From positions 1 to 40,811 of the forward strand of contig VFKL01000079.1 in assembly GCA_009885535.1 (NCBI GenBank): a stretch of 40,811 nucleotides of DNA, in the 5' to 3' direction. The notes under the pieces were generated by a model. It made no database searches. It saw only the letters and a program-made list of their open reading frames with translations, and was not told where the DNA came from. The position numbers and the translations under genes are program-made. This DNA is from Chitinophagaceae bacterium (GTDB taxonomy: Bacteria > Bacteroidota > Bacteroidia > Chitinophagales > Chitinophagaceae). This document shows, in pieces, positions 20,188 to 39,635 of this stretch (positions are counted from its first letter, which is position 1; each line of letters begins with the position of its first letter).

Positions 20188-20293
20188 TTTTTCAACAGAC
20201 TAACCAAATTTTATCTTAATATTCTAACCGAAGCAACCTTACTCGTATCTATCCGATGAATGACTGTATTTGTTATTCACCAAAAACACCGTT

Positions 20294-20824
20294 ATGATAA
20301 AAAATTGGTATGCCGTTTACACTAAGCCTAAATGCGAAAGAAAAGTTTCGTCTTTGCTTACTAAGAAAAAAATTGACAATTACTGTCCTTTAAACAAACA
20401 AACAAATAGTGAACATAGTGAGAAGGAAAAAGAATCGCTTAATCCACTATTCACTTCTTTTGTTTTTGTTTATACTTGTTCAGACAAAATTGAATACATC
20501 AAACAAATGAGTGACATCATCAATTTTGTATATTGGCTTGGTAGACCTGTTGAGCTGAAAGGAATCGAGATAGAGAACATTCAAGAATTTGTGGCCGCTT
20601 ATAATAATGTTTACATCGAAAAATCTGAAGTTTCATTAAATAAAATGGTTCGTGTGGTTACCAAACAGCCCATGATTTCAACTGAAAACGATGTTATAGT
20701 AATGAATCGTACCATCGTAAAACTTACACTTCCAACACTTGGTTTTACACTATGCGCACACACTAATTTCGATCATGTTGAAGTGTCTGAAACTGAGTAC
20801 AGAATCCCACAAATGATTTCATAG
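20294..20824 (+). CDS. UpxY/NusG-type (NGN) transcription antiterminator
   Basis: MIKNWYAVYTKPKCERKVSSLLTKKKIDNYCPLNKQ...PLFTSFVFVYT is the NusG N-terminal pattern; UpxY family proteins occur at Bacteroidota capsule loci. Start Met9 of the listed ORF. Confidence 0.9.
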   Translation: MIKNWYAVYTKPKCERKVSSLLTKKKIDNYCPLNKQTNSEHSEKEKESLNPLFTSFVFVYTCSDKIEYIKQMSDIINFVYWLGRPVELKGIEIENIQEFVAAYNNVYIEKSEVSLNKMVRVVTKQPMISTENDVIVMNRTIVKLTLPTLGFTLCAHTNFDHVEVSETEYRIPQMIS

Positions 20825-21103: not shown

Positions 21104-22003
21104 ATGGAATTGTCCATCAGAAACATTGCTGCCTGGCTAATGTCTAACTTTTACATTATCACTGGGAAAATTAATAACGTAAAAAAATCGGCGAAAAATG
21201 GCGAAATTCTTTTTTCTGTGTATTTCCACAATCCAAGTAAAAAATTATTTGAAGGATGTGTGAAATGGTTTTTAAAAAATGGATTTTCAATCATTTCAAC
21301 TGAAGAGTTAAACTCAATCATTAGAAACAATAAACCAATTCCTGCTTCTTCTGTAGTGTTTACCGTTGATGATGGATGGAAAGAAAACAAGGAAAACATA
21401 GTAGCAGTTGCAGATTGTTATAAAATTCCGGTTACTATTTTTGTTACCACTTCGCCTGTAGAAACTGGAGAATCCTATTGGTGGTCTTATATACAAAAAG
21501 CATTCGATAAAAAGTTGACCAATCATTCTGTTGGAGCTTTGAAATTGGTACCCAACGAACAAAGAATGCAAGAATTGGAGCGTATTAAACCCAATGTACC
21601 CAACGATAGAGATGCATTAACGATTGAAGAGGTAAAAACCATTTCTCAATCACCATATATTTCAATAGGAAGCCACACGGTTACTCACCCTATTTTAACC
21701 ATGTGCAACGATGAAAAATCACAACATGAAATAGTTGAATCCAAAAAAACGCTCGAAAATTGGACAAACAAACCGGTTCAATTCTTTGCATTTCCAAATG
21801 GGAATTACACCCAAAGGGAAATAAATGTATTGAAATCCAATGGATTTCAGATGGCATTCACAACAAAACCCGAATATGTTACGTTAAATAGTTTTAAATC
21901 ACCATTTGAAATTCCAAGATTCGACGTTTTGGAAGATGTTTCTTTTGCAGAAAATATTATTCGTATGACTGGAGTATGGTTTGAAAAAAGAAACAATAAA
22001 TAA
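21104..22003 (+). CDS. polysaccharide deacetylase family protein
   Basis: VVFTVDDGWKENKENI (DD motif), ISIGSHTVTHPILTM (HxxxH), FAFPNGNYTQREINVLKSNGFQMAFTT: NodB-like domain. Confidence 0.93.
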   Translation: MELSIRNIAAWLMSNFYIITGKINNVKKSAKNGEILFSVYFHNPSKKLFEGCVKWFLKNGFSIISTEELNSIIRNNKPIPASSVVFTVDDGWKENKENIVAVADCYKIPVTIFVTTSPVETGESYWWSYIQKAFDKKLTNHSVGALKLVPNEQRMQELERIKPNVPNDRDALTIEEVKTISQSPYISIGSHTVTHPILTMCNDEKSQHEIVESKKTLENWTNKPVQFFAFPNGNYTQREINVLKSNGFQMAFTTKPEYVTLNSFKSPFEIPRFDVLEDVSFAENIIRMTGVWFEKRNNK

Positions 22004-22011
22004 AAAATAGC

Positions 22012-23337
22012 ATGAGTTTTTTAAAGCTTTTAGCATTTCTAAATGTGTTTATTTTTTTAGGGATTATGCTGTTCGGTAAAATGGAGCGAAACAAAGCTTT
22101 TATACTTTTCATATTACTTTCATACCCATTACAACATATTCTTTTATTTGCCGACTTACATTCATTTGATGTAATTGTTTTTTCTTTTTATTTTATTTTT
22201 TACAAAAGAAAGGGGTTAAAAAACAATGAAACAATTATTTATGGGTATTTATTAGCATTTTTGGCATTAATCGTAATTGTTGGATTTGTTTTTTCTACCG
22301 TGGGAATTGATAGCGAAAATATAATTAAATTCATTACAATTTTTCCCATTTTTATTTACGGAAAGATTTTTATAGACGAATGTATTTCCGATCCTACATT
22401 TTTGGAATCAATTTTAAAGTGCTTTAGGTTTATGCTTGGATTTGGCTTATGTTTTCTTATTCTACAAATGGCCTTTGGCTTAAAAGTATCATTAGTAAAA
22501 ACATTAAACCCAAATGTAATTATCACAAATAGTATAAGATACCCTGGCATATTTTCTGATCCACAACAATTTTCTCAGTTTTTAGGCGCTTGTAGTTTTT
22601 TATGCTTAATAAAATTTGATGATCAAAAATTACCAAAAATCAATTTGGTACTTTTTGGGTTATCCGTAATAAGTATAATGGCGGCAGGCGGTAGAGCAGG
22701 ATTAATGGGCTGGGTTCTTGGATTATTATTTGTTTTGTTTTTTAGCAAACCAAAATATAAAATCGCGATTGTTTTATCAGCGGTAATAATCTTTTTCATT
22801 GCGCTTAATTTTCAAGATAAGCTTTCCATTTTCAATAGAGGTAGCGATTTGAATGAAACGTATGATTTCAGAGCAAGCATTTGGGCTGATGCCTTTGAAA
22901 TTTTTGAACAAAACTTATATTGGGGTATTGGATTGGGCAATTATGGAAAATATGTTTTTCTACATTATCCAGATCAAATTTGGATGATAAACAATGAAGT
23001 ATCATCCTTTGACCAACCCGAAAGCGGCTACCTTTTAATATTAACCGAAATGGGTGCTTTAGGCTTTGCATCAATTTTTACTTTTGTCATTTTTCCTATC
23101 ATTCAAACTTTTTACTATTATTTAAAAACAAAAGATATAAACTTCATTCTGATGATCTCAAGTATGATTTGTTGGTTAATTGGTTTTTATTCCACATATT
23201 CCTTTGGAGATATTAGAATTAAAATTTTGGTAGGATCAATCATTGCTTTAATGATCGTTTATAGAACTATATTGAAATCAACTGATCAAATTGAGCTTGA
23301 GGAAGAAAACGTAACTGAAACCCTTACAGAAAACTAA
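22012..23337 (+). CDS. O-antigen ligase/polymerase-like protein (Wzy-like)
   Basis: Polytopic, large hydrophilic loop, YWGIGLGNYGKYVFLHYP and SGYLLILTEMGALGFASIFTF typical of Wzy_C/O-antigen ligase family. Confidence 0.85.
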   Translation: MSFLKLLAFLNVFIFLGIMLFGKMERNKAFILFILLSYPLQHILLFADLHSFDVIVFSFYFIFYKRKGLKNNETIIYGYLLAFLALIVIVGFVFSTVGIDSENIIKFITIFPIFIYGKIFIDECISDPTFLESILKCFRFMLGFGLCFLILQMAFGLKVSLVKTLNPNVIITNSIRYPGIFSDPQQFSQFLGACSFLCLIKFDDQKLPKINLVLFGLSVISIMAAGGRAGLMGWVLGLLFVLFFSKPKYKIAIVLSAVIIFFIALNFQDKLSIFNRGSDLNETYDFRASIWADAFEIFEQNLYWGIGLGNYGKYVFLHYPDQIWMINNEVSSFDQPESGYLLILTEMGALGFASIFTFVIFPIIQTFYYYLKTKDINFILMISSMICWLIGFYSTYSFGDIRIKILVGSIIALMIVYRTILKSTDQIELEEENVTETLTEN

Positions 23338-23347
23338 AGCGATTACA

Positions 23348-24787
23348 TTGAGAAACATATTTAACCTAAAATCTTCTTTTAAAAATAAACTGTTTACCAA
23401 TAGTGTTTGGGGTGTTGTTTCTAACATTATTCAAAATATACTTTTCAGTGTTTTCTTTGTGATTATTGCAAGAATTTATTCTAAAGCAGATTTTGGTCAC
23501 TATGTAATTGCAAATACACTTTACTCATTTATGTTGGGATTTTCATCATTAGGTCTTGGACATTGGTTTATAAGAGAAATCATAAACAATGAAAACAAAT
23601 CAACACTAACGAATAAATTTTTTAAAGTACAGTTATTAATTGGTATTTTTTTTTATGTTATAAATGTGATTGCTTCATACTTGCTTTATGACAACCAAAT
23701 GATTCGTACACTTTCAGTAATCATTGGCATTAACATCATTTTCGATAATATTATCAATGTAATTAAGTCGTTGAATATCGCTTATCAAGAACAACAAAAA
23801 ACATTTTTACTTTTAACAGTTGAAGCTGTATTGAAATTTTTAGTTGGATGTCTACTTTTAATTTACAAATTAGATATGATTTTGCTTTCTTTAATATTAA
23901 TTGGATTGCGACTTATCACATTGAATCTTTTCATCAAAATGGGCAGTTCAAATTCAATTGGATTGAAAGAAATCATTCGGGTTAAAATCGACTGGACTGA
24001 AATAAAAAAAATTATTTTATCCAATTGGTCATTTATCATAATCAGTAGCTTGTCGGTTGTAAATTGGAGAATTGGTAATATTCTTGTTTCAAAAATCTTA
24101 ACCATTCAAGATGTAGCTAATTATGAAATTGCGTTTAAATTCTTTTCCCTTGCATATCTAATTCCTATTATCGTAACTTCTTCTTTATATCCAATGCTGA
24201 TTAATGCTTTCAAAGATGGGCCAGAAAAATTAAAATCTTTATATAATAAGGCCTATTTGCCATTATGTATTTATGGTTTACTTTCTTTTACTTTTGTTTA
24301 TGCATTTGCTGATTATTTAGTTCCATTTGTATTTGGCAAAAGCTATAACGATACTGCTTTGTATTGCAAACAAATGTTTTATGTAATGCTCATTTTTCCA
24401 ACTATTTTTTTACAAGCGAATGTTATTTTAACCCTTAAGCTTGAGAAATTTGACATGATTTGTAATATTATAAGTGTGTTGGTAAATGTGGGCATTTGTA
24501 TCATTGGGTTTCATTTTTACAAGTCGCTAACTGTAGTAAATGTTGCTATTTTCACGTCATTTTTTGTTTTCCACATCATTCAAGACGTCATTCTTATTAA
24601 AAATAAAATAACCAGTATAAAACACGTACTGCTCTTCTATTTATTCACAACGATTGCTATTGCATTTTATATTCTATCTGATTTCTATTTGAATTCTGGA
24701 ATAAATTTCATGCTTTTTTGGGCAATCATTTTAATAATTGGAATTAGCCAATTCAAGAAAATTAAAATTGCTTACTCTACAAAATAA
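23348..24787 (+). CDS. polysaccharide flippase (Wzx-like, MATE/MOP superfamily)
   Basis: TTG start; 12-14 TM helices, NSVWGVVSNIIQNILFSVFFVIIARIYSKADFGHYVIANTLYSF is a classic Wzx N-terminus. Confidence 0.92.
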   Translation: MRNIFNLKSSFKNKLFTNSVWGVVSNIIQNILFSVFFVIIARIYSKADFGHYVIANTLYSFMLGFSSLGLGHWFIREIINNENKSTLTNKFFKVQLLIGIFFYVINVIASYLLYDNQMIRTLSVIIGINIIFDNIINVIKSLNIAYQEQQKTFLLLTVEAVLKFLVGCLLLIYKLDMILLSLILIGLRLITLNLFIKMGSSNSIGLKEIIRVKIDWTEIKKIILSNWSFIIISSLSVVNWRIGNILVSKILTIQDVANYEIAFKFFSLAYLIPIIVTSSLYPMLINAFKDGPEKLKSLYNKAYLPLCIYGLLSFTFVYAFADYLVPFVFGKSYNDTALYCKQMFYVMLIFPTIFLQANVILTLKLEKFDMICNIISVLVNVGICIIGFHFYKSLTVVNVAIFTSFFVFHIIQDVILIKNKITSIKHVLLFYLFTTIAIAFYILSDFYLNSGINFMLFWAIILIIGISQFKKIKIAYSTK

Positions 24788-24794
24788 AAAAATA

Positions 24795-25961
24795 ATGAAG
24801 GTTGCTTTTTATACATCAGCGTATTTTATTGATTGTGCCATTGAAACCATACAATCAATTAAAGACAAAGTTTCTTTGCATTTGTACATTGAGATCTCAG
24901 AGATTTCAAAAAAATCAACTATTTTAAATATTGACAATCTCCAATCATTTGACTTTATTGAAGATGCGGAAAAAGTATTAGGACCAGAGCAATGGATAAA
25001 GTTCAAACCTTATTTTGATGGCATTACAATGGTTAAATTTATTGTGCATAAAAACAGTAAAAGCTTATCGATTGAAAGTCTATTTTCTGCAATGAAACTT
25101 GGTAAATATTTTCAAAAAATGAACTTCGACATTATGCATTTTGACAATATTTCTCAACGCAGTTTTGGACTTTATCCATTTTTAAATAAAACAAAATTGG
25201 TCATCACCCTTCATGATCCTAAGCCACATACCGGCGAAAACAGTTGGAAAACTTATTTAAAATTCAACCTTTATGTTCCAAAAGCTAAAGCATTTATTCA
25301 ATACGCTGAATTTTCAAAAACGTTATTAAAAAAAGTTTTTCCTAAGGTAAATGTACCTGTAAATTGTATCCAACTTCTACCCTATTCTTTTATGAGAAAT
25401 TATTTACCAAAAGAACGAAAGTTGGATAATAGCATTCTTTTTTTTGGTAGACTATCTCCTTACAAAGGCGTTGATTTGCTTTTAAATGCAATCCCAATTG
25501 TTTTAGAGAAATATCCCAATCAACAATTTGTAATTGCAGGAAGTACAAGCTATGATTTTCATTTTGATGAAGTATTAATTTCAACATACAAAAACAACAT
25601 TACAATTATAAACAAATATTTATCCTTAGAAGAAGTTGCTGCCCTAATTGATAAATGTGCTTTTGTGGTTTGTCCTTATAGGGATGCTACTCAAAGCGGG
25701 GTTTTGAGTACAACTTTTGCGTTTGGAAAAACGGCAATTGCATCAAATGTTGGCTCTTTTAGGGAATATATTACTGATGGAATAAATGGTTTAATTTCAG
25801 AACCAGATGCAATCGATTTGGCAAAAAAAATAATCATGGCAATTGAAAATGATTTTTATAAAAAATTAGAATCAAATGTAAATTCAAGCCACACCCCAGA
25901 AAAGCTAAATAAATTTGGTGACATCATTTTGTCGACTTATCAAAATGTATTAAAAGCATAA
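24795..25961 (+). CDS. glycosyltransferase family 4 protein
   Basis: NSILFFGRLSPYKGVDLLLNAIPIVLEKYPNQQFVIAG and CPYRDATQSGVLSTTFAFGKTAIASNVGSFREYITDGINGLI. Start reset to 24795 (MKVAFYTSAYF). Confidence 0.94.
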   Translation: MKVAFYTSAYFIDCAIETIQSIKDKVSLHLYIEISEISKKSTILNIDNLQSFDFIEDAEKVLGPEQWIKFKPYFDGITMVKFIVHKNSKSLSIESLFSAMKLGKYFQKMNFDIMHFDNISQRSFGLYPFLNKTKLVITLHDPKPHTGENSWKTYLKFNLYVPKAKAFIQYAEFSKTLLKKVFPKVNVPVNCIQLLPYSFMRNYLPKERKLDNSILFFGRLSPYKGVDLLLNAIPIVLEKYPNQQFVIAGSTSYDFHFDEVLISTYKNNITIINKYLSLEEVAALIDKCAFVVCPYRDATQSGVLSTTFAFGKTAIASNVGSFREYITDGINGLISEPDAIDLAKKIIMAIENDFYKKLESNVNSSHTPEKLNKFGDIILSTYQNVLKA

Positions 25962-26027
25962 CATTATTAACACTTGAATTTTTCATTTTAGAAAAGTACA
26001 AAAGCTGACAACCTAGTATAATTAATT

Positions 26028-27194
26028 ATGATTAAAGTACTAATTCCTATAAACGAGTTTCCAACGGATATCAACAATATCAGAGGCGGCGTGCATGCTG
26101 CTTTAAAAAATCTATTGATTGGATTTTCAAATAAAGAAATAATTGTTCGTGTTATCTCCTTCAATAAAGAAATCAAACAAAACACCATTAAAAAATTTGC
26201 GGACAATATTGAAATCCATTACACATTTGAAGGCGCACTACCCTTTCATTCGTTAAATTATTTTTTTATCGATTCCTTTAAATTAAAAAAACATGTCAAA
26301 GCATTCAAACCTGATATCATTCATTTTGAAGCGGGAGATGCTTTTTTACTGTCTCAATTATTGATTAATAAAAAGATACCCTATTTACTTACCATTCATG
26401 GTATTGCAATTGCTGAAGGAAAAGTTGAACGAAGCTTACACAAAAAATTGAGTTCCTATTTTAACGGATTTCTTGATAAATTACTATTTCCTAAAAACAT
26501 TATACACCTTTCTAATTACTCGAAAAAAATATATGCCAATAAAAAAATTGACAATCAAGTCATTATTCCAAACGCTTTAAGTGAACATTTTTACAACCTC
26601 CAACTGAAATCTACAACTGAAAACAAATTGATTTTTATTGGCGTATTAAATGATAATAAAAATTTATTACTGCTACTTGAAGCCATGAAAATGCTAAACA
26701 AAAAAAACATGCATTTCCATCTAGATGTTTTGGGTGATTTTAAAGATTTGAACTACAAAACAACAATAGAAGATTTCATTAGTCAAAACCAATTACAAGA
26801 TCAAGTATATTTTCATGGTTGGGTTAAACAAAGTGATACATTAAAGTTGATAGAAGCTGCTGATATTTTAGTACTTGCTTCAAAACAAGAATCGCTTCCT
26901 ATGGTAATTGCAGAATCAATGGCTGCTGGAAAAGCGATAGTTGCTTCAAACATTGGTGGCGTTTCTGAAATGGTACAACAAAATGTAAATGGCTTTTTGT
27001 TTGAGCCAAATAAAGTTTCAGCACTTTCAGATTGCCTGGAGAAATTATATAACAATAACAACACGATTCAACAGTTTTCAGTTGCGTCTAATAAAATAGC
27101 ATCGACGATGTTTCACTGTAATGAGATTGCAAAACAAACAATTTCATTTTACCAAAAGATATTATCTAATAATAATTTTAAACAAATTTTATAA
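26028..27194 (+). CDS. glycosyltransferase family 4 protein
   Basis: IRGGVHAALKNLL, IIHFEAGDAFLLSQL, NKLIFIGVLNDNKNLLLLLEAMKML, VLASKQESLPMVIAESMAAGKAIVASNIGGVSEMVQQNVNGFLFEP. Confidence 0.95.
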   Translation: MIKVLIPINEFPTDINNIRGGVHAALKNLLIGFSNKEIIVRVISFNKEIKQNTIKKFADNIEIHYTFEGALPFHSLNYFFIDSFKLKKHVKAFKPDIIHFEAGDAFLLSQLLINKKIPYLLTIHGIAIAEGKVERSLHKKLSSYFNGFLDKLLFPKNIIHLSNYSKKIYANKKIDNQVIIPNALSEHFYNLQLKSTTENKLIFIGVLNDNKNLLLLLEAMKMLNKKNMHFHLDVLGDFKDLNYKTTIEDFISQNQLQDQVYFHGWVKQSDTLKLIEAADILVLASKQESLPMVIAESMAAGKAIVASNIGGVSEMVQQNVNGFLFEPNKVSALSDCLEKLYNNNNTIQQFSVASNKIASTMFHCNEIAKQTISFYQKILSNNNFKQIL

Positions 27195-27203
27195 ATAAGA
27201 TTA

Positions 27204-27953
27204 ATGATAAATTATACTAAAAAATTCAAATTTTTTAATGTTCACGAAAGATGGTTTCAATATCATTTTAATTGGAAAGATGCTTTTTCAATGGTGAGGT
27301 TATTGCATTTAAAAGAAAAATCAAATCAGTTTATTCCAGCCATTAGAAATACAACACATACGGTTGAACTAAATCTTGAACCAGAGATTAATGCCATTTT
27401 CAGTAGTTTTTCGAATACCATAAAACAAGAAATAAAGAAGTCAAAGGCCGAAGGTGTTATTTGTACTTTTAATAATCATAATATTGAATTTTTTGTATCC
27501 TTCTACAACGAATTTGCACAAGCTAAAAATATTTATACGACCAATGTGGAAAGAATTAATGAAATGAAGGATTTTTTCTACATTTCGTATGCACAATTAA
27601 ATGACGAAGTTTTGGTTGCACACAGTTATCTTGTTGATCCTAAAATGAAAATTGTTCGTTTGTTTCATTCTGCTAACAGAAGACTTGATGCTTCAATAGA
27701 CAGTAAATTAATTGGCAGAGCAAATAAATGTTTAACTTTCGAAGATATTCTACATTTTAAAAACTTAGGAATTGAAACCATGGACTTTGGTGGTTATGCA
27801 AATAATACCACAAACAAAAGCCTAAAAGGAATAAATGATTTCAAATTGGCTTTTGGTGGAAAAGTTGTAGAATGTATTAATTATGACTCCATTTTTTATT
27901 TCATTGTTAAAAATGTTTTTGAGATTTTTAAAAAGAGAAAAACAAATAAATGA
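27204..27953 (+). CDS. FemAB/GNAT-like acyltransferase, paralog 1
   Basis: 249 aa; C-terminal METMDFGGYANNTTNKSLKGINDFKLAFGGKVVE matches the FDFGG...GIxxFKxxFGG pattern of FemAB-like acyltransferases. Similar to the next two ORFs. Confidence 0.72.
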   Translation: MINYTKKFKFFNVHERWFQYHFNWKDAFSMVRLLHLKEKSNQFIPAIRNTTHTVELNLEPEINAIFSSFSNTIKQEIKKSKAEGVICTFNNHNIEFFVSFYNEFAQAKNIYTTNVERINEMKDFFYISYAQLNDEVLVAHSYLVDPKMKIVRLFHSANRRLDASIDSKLIGRANKCLTFEDILHFKNLGIETMDFGGYANNTTNKSLKGINDFKLAFGGKVVECINYDSIFYFIVKNVFEIFKKRKTNK

Positions 27954-28693
27954 TCAGTTTCAAAAAAAAGTTTTATTTCTGGAAATTAACCGATACTTGG
28001 TTTCGATTTGATAAGGGATTATATAACGTTTTCTCTCTGAGAAAATATAGTTTCGTTCAAAACCATGAGCAAATAAAAAATTCGTTTTGTTTTAAAGAAA
28101 TCTCTCATACTTTAATTACTGACCTTACACAGGATTCTGAAAGCATTCTATCCGCCATAAGCAAATCGGTTTTGAAAGAAGCCAAAAAAGCTGAATCCGA
28201 AGGCATTACATGCATCTTTAATAATGATATTGAAAAATTCATCGAATTCTATAACAAGTTTGCTGGAAATAAACAGCTTTACCAGTTTAATAAAAAATTT
28301 ATTACTGAATATAAAGATTTCAATACAATTGCATATGCCGTAAAAGATGGAGAAATTTTAGCTGCTCATTTTTATCTGGTTAGTAAAAAATTCAAATTGG
28401 TTAGATCTTTTTTATCCGGATCTAGAATTGCGGATGAACAATTTGATAAAAGAACGCTTGGTATGGCGAATAAGTTTTTAAAAATTGAAGCCATACATTA
28501 TTTCAAAAAATGCAATTTTGAAACTTTTGATTATGGTGGCATTGTATTAAATACCGATAATGAATCTCTAAAAGGAATTACTGAATATAAAATGTCTTTT
28601 GGTGGGAAAGTAACAACTGACGTTAGTTTTTTAAGTCCCATTTATTTTGTTCTTCTAAAAATCTTTTCTTTTATAGACCGTCGCTACAAATAA
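27950..28693 (+). CDS. FemAB/GNAT-like acyltransferase, paralog 2
   Basis: 247 aa; FETFDYGGIVLNTDNESLKGITEYKMSFGGKVTT; ATGA overlap of 4 nt with paralog 1. Confidence 0.72.
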   Translation: MISFKKKFYFWKLTDTWFRFDKGLYNVFSLRKYSFVQNHEQIKNSFCFKEISHTLITDLTQDSESILSAISKSVLKEAKKAESEGITCIFNNDIEKFIEFYNKFAGNKQLYQFNKKFITEYKDFNTIAYAVKDGEILAAHFYLVSKKFKLVRSFLSGSRIADEQFDKRTLGMANKFLKIEAIHYFKKCNFETFDYGGIVLNTDNESLKGITEYKMSFGGKVTTDVSFLSPIYFVLLKIFSFIDRRYK

Positions 28694-28706
28694 ATAAAAA
28701 AACGCT

Positions 28707-29456
28707 ATGATACAATTTAAAAAGAAATTTTACTGCTTTCAACTCAAAGAAAGTTGGTTTATATTAAATGATTCGATTTTTAAAAACTTGGGCTTGGTGA
28801 GTTATTTCTGTGTGCAAAATCCGCCAAGTAAAACGCCAATTGGATTATGTGAAGATTTTTCCTACACTTTATCTATAGATCTTAACCAAGAAATTGAACA
28901 AATAAAATCAAAGTTCAAAGCTAATCTTAAAAATAAAATCAACCAGGGTGAAAAACTGACTTTTGACATTGTTTTTAATAAAGACATTTCAACTTTTATA
29001 GATTTTTATAACCAGTTTGCCGGCAGGAAGAACATCTATCAAATGAACGAACAAATGAAAAAAGCCCTACCACAAAATCGGTTTTTGGTGGGTTATTCAA
29101 CATTGAATGGTGAAATTTTAAGTGCTAATTTATATATTTATGATGATGAATTAGGAATCGTGCGATGGTTTCTTGGAAGTAGTTCGCGACTAAATGATAA
29201 TGTAGATAAAAAAACAATTGGGATTTCTAATAAATTTCTTTTATTCAAATCATTAATTCATTTTAAAGAATTAAAACTACAGAAATTTGATTTCGGCGGT
29301 TATGCTGAAAATACCACAAACAAAAGTTTAAAAGGAATAAATGATTTCAAAGCTGCTTTTGGAGGTGAAAAAGAAAAATGTATCTCTTATCATTCTTTGC
29401 TGTACTGTTTTTTATTAAAAATATCTCAAAAATTAGATAGGAGATTTTCAAATTAA
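28707..29456 (+). CDS. FemAB/GNAT-like acyltransferase, paralog 3
   Basis: 249 aa; LQKFDFGGYAENTTNKSLKGINDFKAAFGGEKEK; N-terminal FKKKFY and mid-domain FYNQFAGRKNIYQ shared with paralog 2. Confidence 0.72.
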   Translation: MIQFKKKFYCFQLKESWFILNDSIFKNLGLVSYFCVQNPPSKTPIGLCEDFSYTLSIDLNQEIEQIKSKFKANLKNKINQGEKLTFDIVFNKDISTFIDFYNQFAGRKNIYQMNEQMKKALPQNRFLVGYSTLNGEILSANLYIYDDELGIVRWFLGSSSRLNDNVDKKTIGISNKFLLFKSLIHFKELKLQKFDFGGYAENTTNKSLKGINDFKAAFGGEKEKCISYHSLLYCFLLKISQKLDRRFSN

Positions 29457-29511: not shown

Positions 29512-29534
29512 ATTTTGCATTTTGACTTAATTAT
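29512..29534 (+). repeat. 23-nt start-codon-proximal motif
   Basis: ATTTTGCATTTTGACTTAATTAT, 6 nt upstream of ATG 29541; identical to 38215-38237. Confidence 0.85.
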
Positions 29535-30515: not shown

Positions 30516-31784
30516 ATGAATCAATGGTCAAAATATTTTGCCAAAAATAATCTCATTACACAAATCGAGATTAACCGCATAGATAAATTGTATCATCTCA
30601 GCAGTGAAGCATTACTTCAACGATACAACGAAAAATTTATTTCTATTTTCAAACATGCTTTTAATCATTCCACTTTTTATAAAAGTTTATATCAAACAAA
30701 TGGTATTAGTATTAATGACATAAAGGATTTATCTGACATTAATAAATTGCCCATTATAAATAAGGATTTAATAAAGCACGAAATTGATAATATTTACACC
30801 AATTTCAACTTTTTAAAAATAACCGGATTAACCAGTGGTACTTCAGGTTCGCCATTGACTTTATATAGAACTCCATTTGATATTGCAACTGAGCAAGCAT
30901 ACATACGTCATTATAGAAAAATGTATGGATTCAATTTTGGACAGCCAATATTATCCATTAGGGGTATGTTGGGCAAATCTGTAACACATGAATATTTTAA
31001 ACCGGCTAATATTTTATACATTTCAAGTCCTAATATCAATAAATCAACCATTGAAATGTATTATGATTTAATACAGAAATTCAAACCGGTTGCTGTAGAA
31101 GCATTTCCCAGTTATTTACACAAATTCTGTTCTGAGCTTGAAAAAAAAGACTTAAAACTTGAAATCCCTCTTTCTTTTACGTCTTCAGAAACTTTATTGA
31201 GTTGGCAGCGCGAAAAAATAGAGCCATTTTTAAACACAAAAATATTTGATTGGTATGGTAATGCAGAACGTTCAATTCTGTTGGCACAAAATGCGAAAAT
31301 GGAGTATTATCCAATGCCACTTTATTCAATAAATGAATTTAGAGAAAAGGATGTTATAACAACAAATCTGATAAACAAGTCTTTTCCGTTAATACGTTAC
31401 AATGTAGATGACCAAATTGAAGTAACAACAAATGATTTTTTGCAAAATCAAATAAGCCCGAAAGTTAAAAGTATTTCAGGCCGACAAAGTGAAAATGTAA
31501 TTTTAAAAGATGGCAGTCATGTAGGATGTATTGACCATACATTTAAAGGGGTAAAAAATATTGAAATGGCTCAAGTACATCAGTACAATGTGCAAGACCC
31601 TATTGAAATTAAGTTGGTAGTAAATCCTGCTTTCTCTAAAGCAGATGAAGATCAATTGAGGGCAAATTGGATACAAATGGTTGGAACAGAAATGGAGTTA
31701 AAATTTACATACTGTACTAAATCTGAATTAACTTTTAATCCCAATCAAAAATATAGATTAATTATTAAACAGAAACCTGCATAA
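30516..31784 (+). CDS. PaaK/CapK-like adenylate-forming enzyme
   Basis: GLTSGTSGSPLTLYRT (AMP-binding P-loop), FDWYGNAERSILLAQ (A5-like), PLIRYNVDDQIEV, ISGRQSENVILKDGSHVG (A8-like). Confidence 0.9.
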   Translation: MNQWSKYFAKNNLITQIEINRIDKLYHLSSEALLQRYNEKFISIFKHAFNHSTFYKSLYQTNGISINDIKDLSDINKLPIINKDLIKHEIDNIYTNFNFLKITGLTSGTSGSPLTLYRTPFDIATEQAYIRHYRKMYGFNFGQPILSIRGMLGKSVTHEYFKPANILYISSPNINKSTIEMYYDLIQKFKPVAVEAFPSYLHKFCSELEKKDLKLEIPLSFTSSETLLSWQREKIEPFLNTKIFDWYGNAERSILLAQNAKMEYYPMPLYSINEFREKDVITTNLINKSFPLIRYNVDDQIEVTTNDFLQNQISPKVKSISGRQSENVILKDGSHVGCIDHTFKGVKNIEMAQVHQYNVQDPIEIKLVVNPAFSKADEDQLRANWIQMVGTEMELKFTYCTKSELTFNPNQKYRLIIKQKPA

Positions 31785-35121: not shown

Positions 35122-36134
35122 TAAAAGTAGCCCTTATTGGTGCCGGAAAAATGGGTATTTCACATCTTTCCATTTTAGGCGCACATCCTGATGTAGAAAT
35201 TGTGGGTGTAGCAGATACATCGAAAATGGTAAATGATGTATTAGAGAAATACTCAGGTTTTAAAACATTTACAGATTATAAAAAAATGTTGGATGCCGTA
35301 AAACCAGATGCCGTTTTTGTAGCGATTCCCACAAAATTTCATGCAGATTTTGTAGCAGAATTATTAAACAGAAACATTCATTTGTTTGTTGAAAAACCAT
35401 TTTGTTTGAAGGTTGAACAAAGTGAAAAACTATCCGCCATAGCAAAAGAAAAAAAGCTAATTAATCAAGTAGGTTATCACAATAAATTTATAAGCACTTT
35501 TGAAGAAGTTAAACGACTTGTTTCTGGTGGTCATATCGGCAACATCCAGCATTTTTTGGGTGAGGCTTACGGACCGGTAGTGTTGAAAAAGAAACAAGAT
35601 ACCTGGCGCTCCGATCCAGAAGAAGGAGGCGGTTGCTTAATGGATTATGCATCACACGTTATTGATTTATTGAACCATATCGTAGCTCCAATCAATACCG
35701 TTCATGGTAGTTTATTAAAGCCAATTTATTCTAATAAAGTTGAAGACGCCGTGTATGCTTTATTGGAAACAGAAAATAAAATATCGGGTGTTCTTTCAGT
35801 TAACTGGAGTGAAGAAACCTATCGAAAAATGTCTACCTCTATAACCGTTATCGGTTCTGAAGGAAAGATCATTTCTGATGCTTCAGAATTAAGGGTTTAT
35901 TTCAAATCTGCGAATTGCCCAACTGGATATTCAAAAGGATGGAATGTAAAATATGTAACCGACCTTACAGAGCAAGTTGACTTTTATTTACGTGGAGAAG
36001 AATATTCAGCTCAAATAGATTATTTCATAAAAGCCATAAAAGGTGAAGTTCCAAATAATAAAAACACATTTGAATCAGCCGCAAAAACGGATAAAGTAAT
36101 CAGCTTAATAAAAAACAATAAAAACAACGCATAA
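35118..36134 (+). CDS. Gfo/Idh/MocA family oxidoreductase
   Basis: VALIGAGKMGISHLSILGAHPDVEIVGVADTS, DAVFVAIPTKFHADFVAELLNRNIHLFVEKPFCLKVEQ, GGGCLMDYASHVIDLLNHI. Confidence 0.95.
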   Translation: MIKVALIGAGKMGISHLSILGAHPDVEIVGVADTSKMVNDVLEKYSGFKTFTDYKKMLDAVKPDAVFVAIPTKFHADFVAELLNRNIHLFVEKPFCLKVEQSEKLSAIAKEKKLINQVGYHNKFISTFEEVKRLVSGGHIGNIQHFLGEAYGPVVLKKKQDTWRSDPEEGGGCLMDYASHVIDLLNHIVAPINTVHGSLLKPIYSNKVEDAVYALLETENKISGVLSVNWSEETYRKMSTSITVIGSEGKIISDASELRVYFKSANCPTGYSKGWNVKYVTDLTEQVDFYLRGEEYSAQIDYFIKAIKGEVPNNKNTFESAAKTDKVISLIKNNKNNA

Positions 36135-37000
36135 TGGAAAGAATATTATTTGGCGACAATCAATTTTTTGCGGTTAATCATATATCAGACGAGAAATCGA
36201 GGGCACAATCCATAAAATTTAAAGAAGACAAAACCATTTTAGATACCATTGATATCGCCCGTGATTTAGGCACGGAAACATTCATGTGTACTACACACGA
36301 TAGGATTATAAATATCTGTGAAATGGTGAGACAAAACCCTGAAAAGTACAAGAACTTTTCAATTTTACCTTGTATGCCATATGCCCATAAATATGCCAAT
36401 GCAGTTACCGAATTAGGCATTGTAGGCACCATTCAACAATATGTTCCGGGTAATTTTTTGGGCACCATGTTTAAAGGCGGATTGGCAGTAATGTCTAAAG
36501 ATTATTTATCTATAATGGAATTGATGGTGGATGCCGAGATGAAAATGTTTAAGAAAATAAATACACCCGTAATTTTTCTGCAAAATGTAGTAACAGACTT
36601 ATTATTAGGGCTTGGCATGAAAGATATTTTAAAAGCGTATCATGACTATGTAATTAAAAAATATAACGTTGAGCCTGGTTTCATCACCATGAATATGCCT
36701 AAATTATTGGCTGTTTTGGAAAGTGTAGGTATTCAAAATCCGATCATTTGTTCATCAATTAATAAAGCAGGATTTAGAATGTCGGGCGGTATGGAGATTT
36801 ATGAAAAAACGCTTCGTGAAAAACAAGTAAGGGCTATTGCCATGCAAGTGCTTGGTGGCGGTGCAATTCCGGCAAAAGAAGCATTGGAATATGTATGTAA
36901 TTTACCCAATGTTTCCTCTATTTTATTTGGAGCCTCATCAAAACAAAACATTGCTCAAACCATTTCTTTAATTCATGAATTTGATGAGAAGAAAAAATAA
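36134..37000 (+). CDS. TIM-barrel, aldo/keto reductase-like protein
   Basis: GDNQFFAVNHISDEKSRAQ N-terminus; C-terminal VLGGGAIPAKEALEYVCNLPNVSSILFGASSKQNIAQTISLI resembles AKR C-termini; TAATG coupling with upstream gene. Confidence 0.65.
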   Translation: MERILFGDNQFFAVNHISDEKSRAQSIKFKEDKTILDTIDIARDLGTETFMCTTHDRIINICEMVRQNPEKYKNFSILPCMPYAHKYANAVTELGIVGTIQQYVPGNFLGTMFKGGLAVMSKDYLSIMELMVDAEMKMFKKINTPVIFLQNVVTDLLLGLGMKDILKAYHDYVIKKYNVEPGFITMNMPKLLAVLESVGIQNPIICSSINKAGFRMSGGMEIYEKTLREKQVRAIAMQVLGGGAIPAKEALEYVCNLPNVSSILFGASSKQNIAQTISLIHEFDEKKK

Positions 37001-37009
37001 ATTATTCAA

Positions 37010-38101
37010 ATGAACATAACACTAATTGCTGGAGCTAGGCCAAATTTCATGAAGATATCGCCGATTATAAAGGCGATACAAGCTGCAAATAATAATGGCA
37101 TTGACATTCATTTTAGATTGGTGCATACTGGTCAACATTATGACAATGCGATGAGTGGTGGTTTTTTTGATCAATTGGGCATACCCACTCCGGATGTAAA
37201 TCTTGAATGCGGAGGAGGTTCTCAAGCCGAACAGACTGCAGCCATTATGGTGAAGTTTGAAAAAGAATTGATTGCACACAAACCAGATGTGGTATTGGTT
37301 GTAGGCGATGTAACTTCTACAATGGCATGTACCATTACAGCTAAAAAATTATGCATCGATGTAGTTCATGTAGAAGCTGGAATCAGATCTGGCGATATGA
37401 CCATGCCAGAAGAAATCAATAGAATGGTAACGGATTCTATTTGTGACCATTTTTTCACCACAAGCGAAACCGCACAAAAAACATTAATCAATCAACAGAT
37501 CAATCCTGCACGTGTACATTTTGTAGGCAATACCATGATTGATACTTTGATGAGCAATCTAGATAAACTTCGAAAGCCAACATTTTTTGAAGCGGCTTCA
37601 ATAGAAGATGAAAAGTATTTCCTTCTCACTCTACATCGACCATCGAATGTGGATGATGCCGAAAACTTAAAATCTATTTTAGATGCCATTATGAAATCGA
37701 CCCTACCCTTTCCCGTTATATTTCCGGTGCATCCAAGAACCAAGCAGATTTTAAAAAACATTCAGCTCGATTATGAAAATTTAATCATGATTGAACCACA
37801 AGGTTATCTCGAATTTATTTATTTGGTAAAACATGCAAAAGGAATCATCACAGATTCTGGAGGCATTACAGAAGAAGCAACCGTGTTACATGTACCTTGT
37901 TTGACCATGCGTAATTCAACTGAAAGACCTGAAACCATTACATTAGGCACCAACGAATTAATTGGCGATGATCTTGAAAAATTAAAGTCTAGTTTAATAA
38001 AAATCATGGATAACAATTGGAAAAAAGGCAACATACCGCCTTTGTGGGATGGAAAAACAGCAGAAAGAATTGTTGACATTTTAGTTACTAAATATTTGTA
38101 G
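37010..38101 (+). CDS. wecB: UDP-N-acetylglucosamine 2-epimerase (non-hydrolysing)
   Basis: TLIAGARPNFMKISPIIKAI, RLVHTGQHYDNAMSGGFFDQLGIP, VVHVEAGIRSGDMTMPEEINRMVTDSICDHFFTTSE, ITDSGGITEEATVLHVPCLTMRNSTERPETITLGTN. Confidence 0.96.
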   Translation: MNITLIAGARPNFMKISPIIKAIQAANNNGIDIHFRLVHTGQHYDNAMSGGFFDQLGIPTPDVNLECGGGSQAEQTAAIMVKFEKELIAHKPDVVLVVGDVTSTMACTITAKKLCIDVVHVEAGIRSGDMTMPEEINRMVTDSICDHFFTTSETAQKTLINQQINPARVHFVGNTMIDTLMSNLDKLRKPTFFEAASIEDEKYFLLTLHRPSNVDDAENLKSILDAIMKSTLPFPVIFPVHPRTKQILKNIQLDYENLIMIEPQGYLEFIYLVKHAKGIITDSGGITEEATVLHVPCLTMRNSTERPETITLGTNELIGDDLEKLKSSLIKIMDNNWKKGNIPPLWDGKTAERIVDILVTKYL

Positions 38102-38243: not shown

Positions 38244-39635
38244 ATGAATAAACAATTCAAAAGATATTTACAAGCCAGTTTAATTTTCCTGGATTTATTC
38301 ATGCTAAATGCATGCTTCTTTTTGCCCAAACTAATCTTCAAAGAAAGTATCGACATGTCTTACACATCAACGTACTTTACATTTTGGATAACCACAATTT
38401 CAATATGGGTTATTTTGGCATTTTTTTCTGGTGTTTATACAGAAAAAATCATACTTCAATTTGAGACATTTACAAAAAGAACGGTTCAGGTATTTTTATT
38501 TTGGACAATATTTGATTTATTTTATTTATTTATTACCAGAGATATAAATGTATCCAGATTCTTTATTTTATTGCATTTTAGTTTTTTTGTAATTTCTATT
38601 TTAATAAATCGATTTTTATATGTTGGGATAAGAAATTATTTCAAATCAAAAGACTTTTTAGTGAAGAAAGTAATTATTTTAGGATACAATAGCATTTCAT
38701 TAAAATTGGCTTCTTATTTTGAAGAAGAATCGATAAATACCCAATTAATCGGTTTTGTAGAAGATGAAAAGAACATTAAAGAATTGACGCACTACCCTGT
38801 TTTAGCAGAAATTAAAAATCTGATTCAAGTAGCAAAAGATTATGATGTGCAAGAAATTTATTCGACTATTACGCCTGAACAAAATGAATTTATTTATGAG
38901 CTGATGCATCAATCAGAAAACGAATGCATCCGATTTAAAGTTGTTCCTAATTTAGCCTATTTTTTTAGTAAGCCAGTTGTGGTAGATTATGTTCGCGATC
39001 TTCCTGTATTATCATTACGGAGCGAACCTTTAGAAGATGTTGGAAACCGTTTAAAGAAAAGATTTCTCGATGTTGTAATTAGCTTAATTGTAATCATTTT
39101 TATTTTATCCTGGCTTATTCCAATTATAGGATTACTTATTTTGATAGAATCTAGGGGTCCGATTTTTTTCAAACAACAAAGAACTGGTAAAAACAATCAA
39201 TCGTTTAATTGTTTGAAATTTAGAAGTATGCGACCAAACAATGATGCCAATTTAAAGCAAGCCACAAAAAATGACAATCGCATCACAAAAATTGGAAAGA
39301 TATTACGTAAAACCAGTTTGGATGAGTTTCCACAATTCATAAATGTATTAAAAGGCGAAATGAGTTTGGTAGGTCCTCGCCCACACATGGTAAAACATAC
39401 CGATGATTATTCTCAGATTGTAGACCAATACATGATTAGGCATTTTTTAAAGCCAGGCATTACAGGATGGGCACAAATAAATGGTTTAAGGGGTGAAATC
39501 ACCGAACCAAAACAAATAAAACTTAGGGTTAAATACGATTTATGGTACCTTGAAAATTGGAACATTTGGCTTGATTTAAAAATATTATTTCTCACTATAT
39601 ACACTATTTGTAAAGGAGATAAAAAAGCATATTAA
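38244..39635 (+). CDS. exopolysaccharide polyprenyl glycosylphosphotransferase (WcaJ/WbaP-like)
   Basis: [111 protein letters not shown]. Confidence 0.97.

Follow-up and report, generated by a model that had tools for sequence, protein, structure and literature searches.

Three tandem genes in an exopolysaccharide (EPS) locus of a Chitinophagaceae bacterium encode, in the reading that we favor with moderate confidence, cytosolic shortened FemAB-type transferases that N-aminoacylate deacetylated amino sugars of the EPS, probably from aminoacyl-tRNA. The locus described here supplies enzymes that are small and look soluble, and whose closest relatives of solved structure transfer aminoacyl groups from tRNA to amino sugars. 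It also comes in natural variants with zero to three copies, both with a deacetylase and without one, and therefore the scheme "deacetylate, then aminoacylate" becomes directly testable. If true, it would link the charged tRNAs of translation to biofilm chemistry.

The EPS locus and its three femAB genes

The DNA stretch analyzed (hereafter the window, 40,811 nucleotides) belongs to an assembly of 2.57 Mb, 92% complete, whose nearest named relatives are Chitinophagaceae MAGs. The only femAB copies found in this assembly are the three tandem ORFs at 27204-29456, within a 20-gene EPS locus of the Wzx/Wzy type that comprises, from start to end, a polysaccharide export protein, Wzc, a UpxY/NusG-like gene, a deacetylase, Wzy, Wzx, glycosyltransferases, WecB and WbaP. 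The relevant features are:

21104..22003, + strand: polysaccharide deacetylase (PF01522), with TVDDG and HTVTH motifs
22012..23337, + strand: Wzy-type protein (PF04932)
23348..24787, + strand: Wzx-type flippase
24738..25961, + strand: GT_a glycosyltransferase
25964..27949, + strand: GT_b and ORF1 segment, from DNA comparison with four close syntenic loci
26028..27194, + strand: GT_b, GT4-type glycosyltransferase directly 5' of ORF1
27204..27953, + strand: ORF1, mini-FemAB paralog, 249 aa; closest syntenic loci without ortholog
27950..28693, + strand: ORF2, mini-FemAB paralog, 247 aa; orthologs in L029, L030, L031 and L034, 83-86% identity
28694..29511, + strand: ORF3 segment, missing from L034, the breaks coinciding with gene borders
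28707..29456, + strand: ORF3, mini-FemAB paralog, 249 aa; orthologs in L029, L030 and L031, 83-84%; cleanly absent from L034
29541..30437, + strand: GINT1_N-domain protein, adjoining the femAB genes
30516..31784, + strand: PaaK/CapK-like adenylate-forming ligase, kept in syntenic loci without femAB
37010..38101, + strand: WecB-type UDP-GlcNAc 2-epimerase, above the NCBIfam cutoff
38244..39635, + strand: WbaP-type initiating sugar transferase

The WecB-type epimerase implies that the repeat unit contains a HexNAc. At the head of the locus, a UpxY/LoaP/RfaH-like NusG paralog (20270-20824) suggests control by processive antitermination. A 288-aa protein (36134-37000), for which Pfam and NCBIfam searches gave no match, shares 97% identity with its L034 counterpart and 72-85% with those of other syntenic loci.

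The three ORFs are intact and lie on the same strand; ORF1 and ORF2 overlap by ATGA, and 13 nt separate ORF2 from ORF3. They are homologous over their full length, with pairwise identities of 36-38% (E 1e-46 and 8e-46). A previous sequence-only reading had described a tandem trio of 247-249 aa paralogs within an EPS locus, clearly diverged and not recently duplicated; coordinates, strand and full-length homology all agree with the former, and this level of identity with the latter. The same identity rules out an assembly duplicate. Regarding the motifs that had been attributed to the three copies, the alignment retains the mid block FYNxFAxxKxxY in all of them, while the other two need correction: the C-terminal block DFGGYxxNTTNKSLKGIxxFKxxFGG has the quoted form in ORF1 and ORF3 and the variant DYGGIVLNTDNESLKGITEYKMSFGG in ORF2, and the N-terminal FKKKFY is restricted to ORF2 and ORF3, the equivalent in ORF1 being YTKKFKFF. 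A DRR sequence is found near the C-terminus of ORF2 (28670-28693) and ORF3 (29430-29456), and likewise in L032, L033 and L034; its resemblance to the C-terminal arginines that HfsK requires to bind c-di-GMP is possibly a coincidence.

Family, fold and active site

Scanned singly against Pfam, each of the three window proteins gave no significant match. A family alignment of 33 members was turned into a profile, which among PDB chains matches aminoacyl-tRNA transferases of known structure (E 6e-12 to 1e-7), such as Sbb17/Sba18 (5.8e-12, 2e-11) and the FemX proteins of S. aureus (1.4e-10) and W. viridescens (about 9e-8). PF02388 matches 20 of the 33 members (E up to 0.1, best 2.4e-9). The best NCBIfam resemblance (26/33 members, best E 5.5e-7) is to TIGR03019, the FemAB family of XrtA/PEP-CTERM EPS systems, although ORF3, with 12.5 bits, is below its cutoff of 260.35. 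In the AlphaFold models of ORF3 (pLDDT 90.6) and ORF1 (pLDDT 89.2) the catalytic domain is predicted to adopt the GNAT fold. With both models, the first 27 PDB matches of Foldseek are all aminoacyl-tRNA transferases or members of those families, with Sbb17/Sba18 at the top, plus FemX (E about 1e-10), MprF/PGS and FemA. The FemAB/GNAT kinship anticipated from the letters is thus supported by profile matches, models and a conserved lysine, and the outcome that would have spoken against it, a structure prediction without such a fold, did not occur for ORF3 and ORF1.

This lysine, Lys215, is invariant in 33/33 members, as are Asp195 and Gly198, and position 214 is Phe in 26 and Tyr in 7. In FemX, K305 and F304 are essential (PMC4964394). 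In the HMMER alignment, the DLGG...SLY stretch of FemX extends to chain residue 302, a few residues before K305; Lys215 is the predicted equivalent of K305, placed by means of the FK motif beyond the end of that alignment.

The characterized aminoacyl-tRNA transferases of GNAT fold contain a pair of GNAT domains, and the acceptor site lies between the two (PMC12945691). Position 44 of the family profile aligns with FemX residue 138, and therefore the N-terminal side is about 94 residues shorter. In the ORF3 and ORF1 models, the first 58 residues form four strands and one short helix, followed by one complete GNAT domain. Instead of two tandem domains there is a stunted N-terminal part, most of FemABX domain 1 being missing. 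The 249-aa proteins fall outside the strict FemABX definition and are named here mini-FemABs. Since they have one complete domain, the acceptor site is not transferable from the characterized relatives.

Copy number, orthology and possible exchange of a gene pair

At the same locus position, one femAB copy is found in L032-L034, L052, L054-L056 and L058, two in L029-L031, and three in the window; the single gene of the relatives sits between GT_b and GINT1_N/CapK. Tandem copies recur within the order: L101 and L105 (G848, G870), which belong to other families, also have two adjacent femAB genes. In the tree, ORF2 groups with the first copies of L029-L031 and the L034 copy, and ORF3 with the second copies of L029-L031 (support 100/100 in both cases), which bears out the separate orthologous groups that the sequence-only reading had proposed to look for. 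ORF1 falls outside those groups, and its placement close to L054 and L056 is weakly supported (80/65). The dN/dS values of ORF2 and ORF3 against their orthologs are 0.05-0.10, with some dS near saturation, and point to purifying selection on both groups. Degenerating copies are ruled out by these values for ORF2 and ORF3, and ORF1 is intact although it has no close ortholog; decaying copies restricted to this genome, the result that would have undermined the earlier proposal, were hence not what was found.

The window was also compared at the DNA level with L029, L030, L031 and L034, taking the breaks from the blastn ends. The 80-84% identity ends at about 25963 (25962-25965) and restarts at 27948-27950, position 27950 being the ATG of ORF2. 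Inside 25964-27949 no strong match to the four close loci is present, just short pieces of 66-82% identity. The L034 match stops a second time at 28693 and restarts at 29512. GT_b shares 42-45% identity with its counterpart in the relatives (42-44% against L029, L030 and L034), vs 79-97% for the other shared locus genes; L029, L030 and L034 lack an ORF1 ortholog, and L034 also one of ORF3. GT_b groups in its tree with L054 and L056 (95/90), as ORF1 weakly does. The simplest reading of these borders and trees is that GT_b and ORF1 were exchanged as a pair, in an unproven direction; replacement or loss on the side of the relatives is a possible alternative history. The base composition of the segment bears no foreign signature. 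The pairing of ORF1 with a different glycosyltransferase, as if co-exchanged, suggests a match between the enzyme and the sugar added by its neighbor. Mirror-tree correlation was rejected as a proof of such pairing: without the window, FemAB distances track every locus gene (0.70-0.96), and it is therefore the segment of the window, and not this correlation, that argues for it.

Association with a polysaccharide deacetylase

femAB and a polysaccharide deacetylase gene tend to be found together. In a genus sample of 36 genomes (11 with femAB, 25 without), the deacetylase is present in 8/11 vs 2/25, respectively (p=2e-4, relatedness ignored), and among toroid-marked loci in 12/13 with femAB vs 2/15 without (p=7e-5, hand tally, relatedness ignored). 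The syntenic locus L064 has neither gene; in L060, femAB is missing and only a stub of the deacetylase, followed by a stop, remains. This stub, truncated, lies after the NusG gene (L060:5043-5309) and is an apparent pseudogene. Both genes are also neighbors in L039-L041 and L045 (another genus of the family), L037 (an Acidulodesulfobacteriota MAG), L022 and L108. The linkage to EPS genes and a deacetylase known from HfsK is thus found here as well, with exceptions: some femAB loci, such as L042, L051, L053 and L057, have no recognized deacetylase within the sequence read; G005 keeps the deacetylase, but GT_b and GINT1_N adjoin and femAB is absent from its usual place; the contig of G024 stops before the femAB position; and further exceptions are L065 and L066. 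The GINT1_N gene lies beside femAB in the window and in 12 other loci, including the four just named without a recognized deacetylase, and occurs in femAB-less loci too.

The maximum 19-residue Kyte-Doolittle value of the window deacetylase is 1.37, compared with 2.43 for Wzx, and a signal peptide or TM segment is not obvious; a cytosolic location is therefore plausible. This enzyme is the proposed source of the free amine.

Proposed mechanism and alternative explanations

The amide would be formed on an acceptor amino sugar within the lipid-linked EPS repeat unit while this is being built. A glycosyltransferase would add an N-acetylated hexosamine, the NodB-type deacetylase of the operon would free its amine, and a FemAB enzyme would move an aminoacyl group onto it, most likely from aminoacyl-tRNA, with the conserved lysine stabilizing the tetrahedral intermediate; Wzx would then flip the unit and Wzy polymerize it. 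The three copies may use different donors as well as different sites. N-(amino)acylation of amino sugars, already put forward by the sequence-only reading, is retained as the best interpretation. The shortening of the proteins, the deacetylase association and the GT_b and ORF1 segment had escaped that reading. FemX, FemA and FemB build a short peptide on peptidoglycan. A more tentative extension is that the mini-FemABs form a separate aminoacyl-tRNA-dependent EPS group matched to particular glycosyltransferases, in which the triplet builds a short peptide on one sugar or aminoacylates three sites; if true, the product would be a peptide-decorated exopolysaccharide.

The most serious competitor, which we hold to be possible but rather doubtful, is that enzymes with this FemAB-like fold take their acyl group from acetyl-CoA or a different acyl-CoA and use it to restore the acylation of the deacetylated sugar; the acyl-CoA would perhaps come from the PaaK/CapK-like ligase of the operon. 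Most GNATs use acyl-CoA, the ligase gene is two genes downstream, and the donor of HfsK is not established either (PMC5362036). At the P-loop site, most members have a GxA-like turn (G 28/33, A 26/33), but the Q/R of the CoA P-loop [QR]xxGx[GA] is not conserved, and the complete motif is present in just 6/33 members; moreover, the nearest relatives in sequence and fold are aminoacyl-tRNA transferases. The ligase stays in the femAB-less loci L059, L060 and L064, so it is not dedicated to femAB, and its candidacy as a dedicated donor supplier is unsupported.

The remaining explanations are considerably less probable. That three redundant copies raise the dosage of one activity would suit their tandem order, probably in one transcription unit, and the sufficiency of one copy in most relatives; we consider it improbable given the divergence of the copies, the maintenance of ORF2 and ORF3 as separate lineages under low dN/dS, and the failure of Caulobacter HfsK and CC2278 to cross-complement (PMC5362036). 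Enzymes of peptidoglycan or lipid aminoacylation that simply lie in an EPS locus are suggested by FemX and MprF among the nearest folds, but this is very unlikely considering the fixed gene position in the EPS locus of many relatives, the many genus genomes without the gene and its co-variation with the deacetylase. Hardly any weight is given to a protein acceptor, e.g., an anchor protein: the HfsK authors did not fully exclude it, but the coupling is to deacetylase and glycosyltransferase genes, and an anchor protein gene was not recognized in the locus.

Comparison with known systems

Among the papers retrieved on FemAB proteins in O-antigen, capsule or EPS chemistry, only the holdfast work proved relevant. 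HfsK of Caulobacter is a FemX-like EPS protein of the holdfast; it has two paralogs, and HfsH is its partner deacetylase. Loss of HfsK ruins adhesion, the three paralogs act on one adhesin, HfsK orthologs are found in clusters of EPS genes across several phyla, and the authors suggested that HfsK may acylate amines exposed by HfsH (PMC5362036). The previous view of such enzymes as no standard part of Wzx/Wzy clusters is therefore not supported. As with HfsK, CC2278 and CC1244 (about 30% identical), the window has three paralogs in one organism serving, as proposed, an exported polysaccharide, with a deacetylase proposed to expose amines and a glycosyltransferase in the operon of one paralog. 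HfsK contains two GNAT domains, and its binding of c-di-GMP requires a C-terminal extension. The Caulobacter paralogs have separate, non-adjacent locus numbers, whereas the window copies are in tandem, with one complete GNAT domain in the ORF3 and ORF1 models.

FemX (W. viridescens, S. aureus) and FemA share with the window proteins the GNAT fold, the DxGG motif and the catalytic lysine in FK, but have 335-420 aa, two GNAT domains and a peptidoglycan precursor as acceptor. The nearest solved structures are Sbb17/Sba18 (PDB 9wqw-9wqy), aminoacyl-tRNA-dependent according to the PDB titles and solved with the amino-sugar compound streptothrisamine; they differ in having about 311 aa, in belonging to antibiotic biosynthesis and in a structural alignment identity of just 14-16%. 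A related enzyme, Orf11 of BD-12 biosynthesis, glycylates the amino-sugar intermediate streptothrisamine from Gly-tRNA (PMC12945691). FemAB proteins in EPS systems are already known from HfsK/HfsH; what is added here is the shortened proteins, the tandem triplet and the comparative evidence on the deacetylase.
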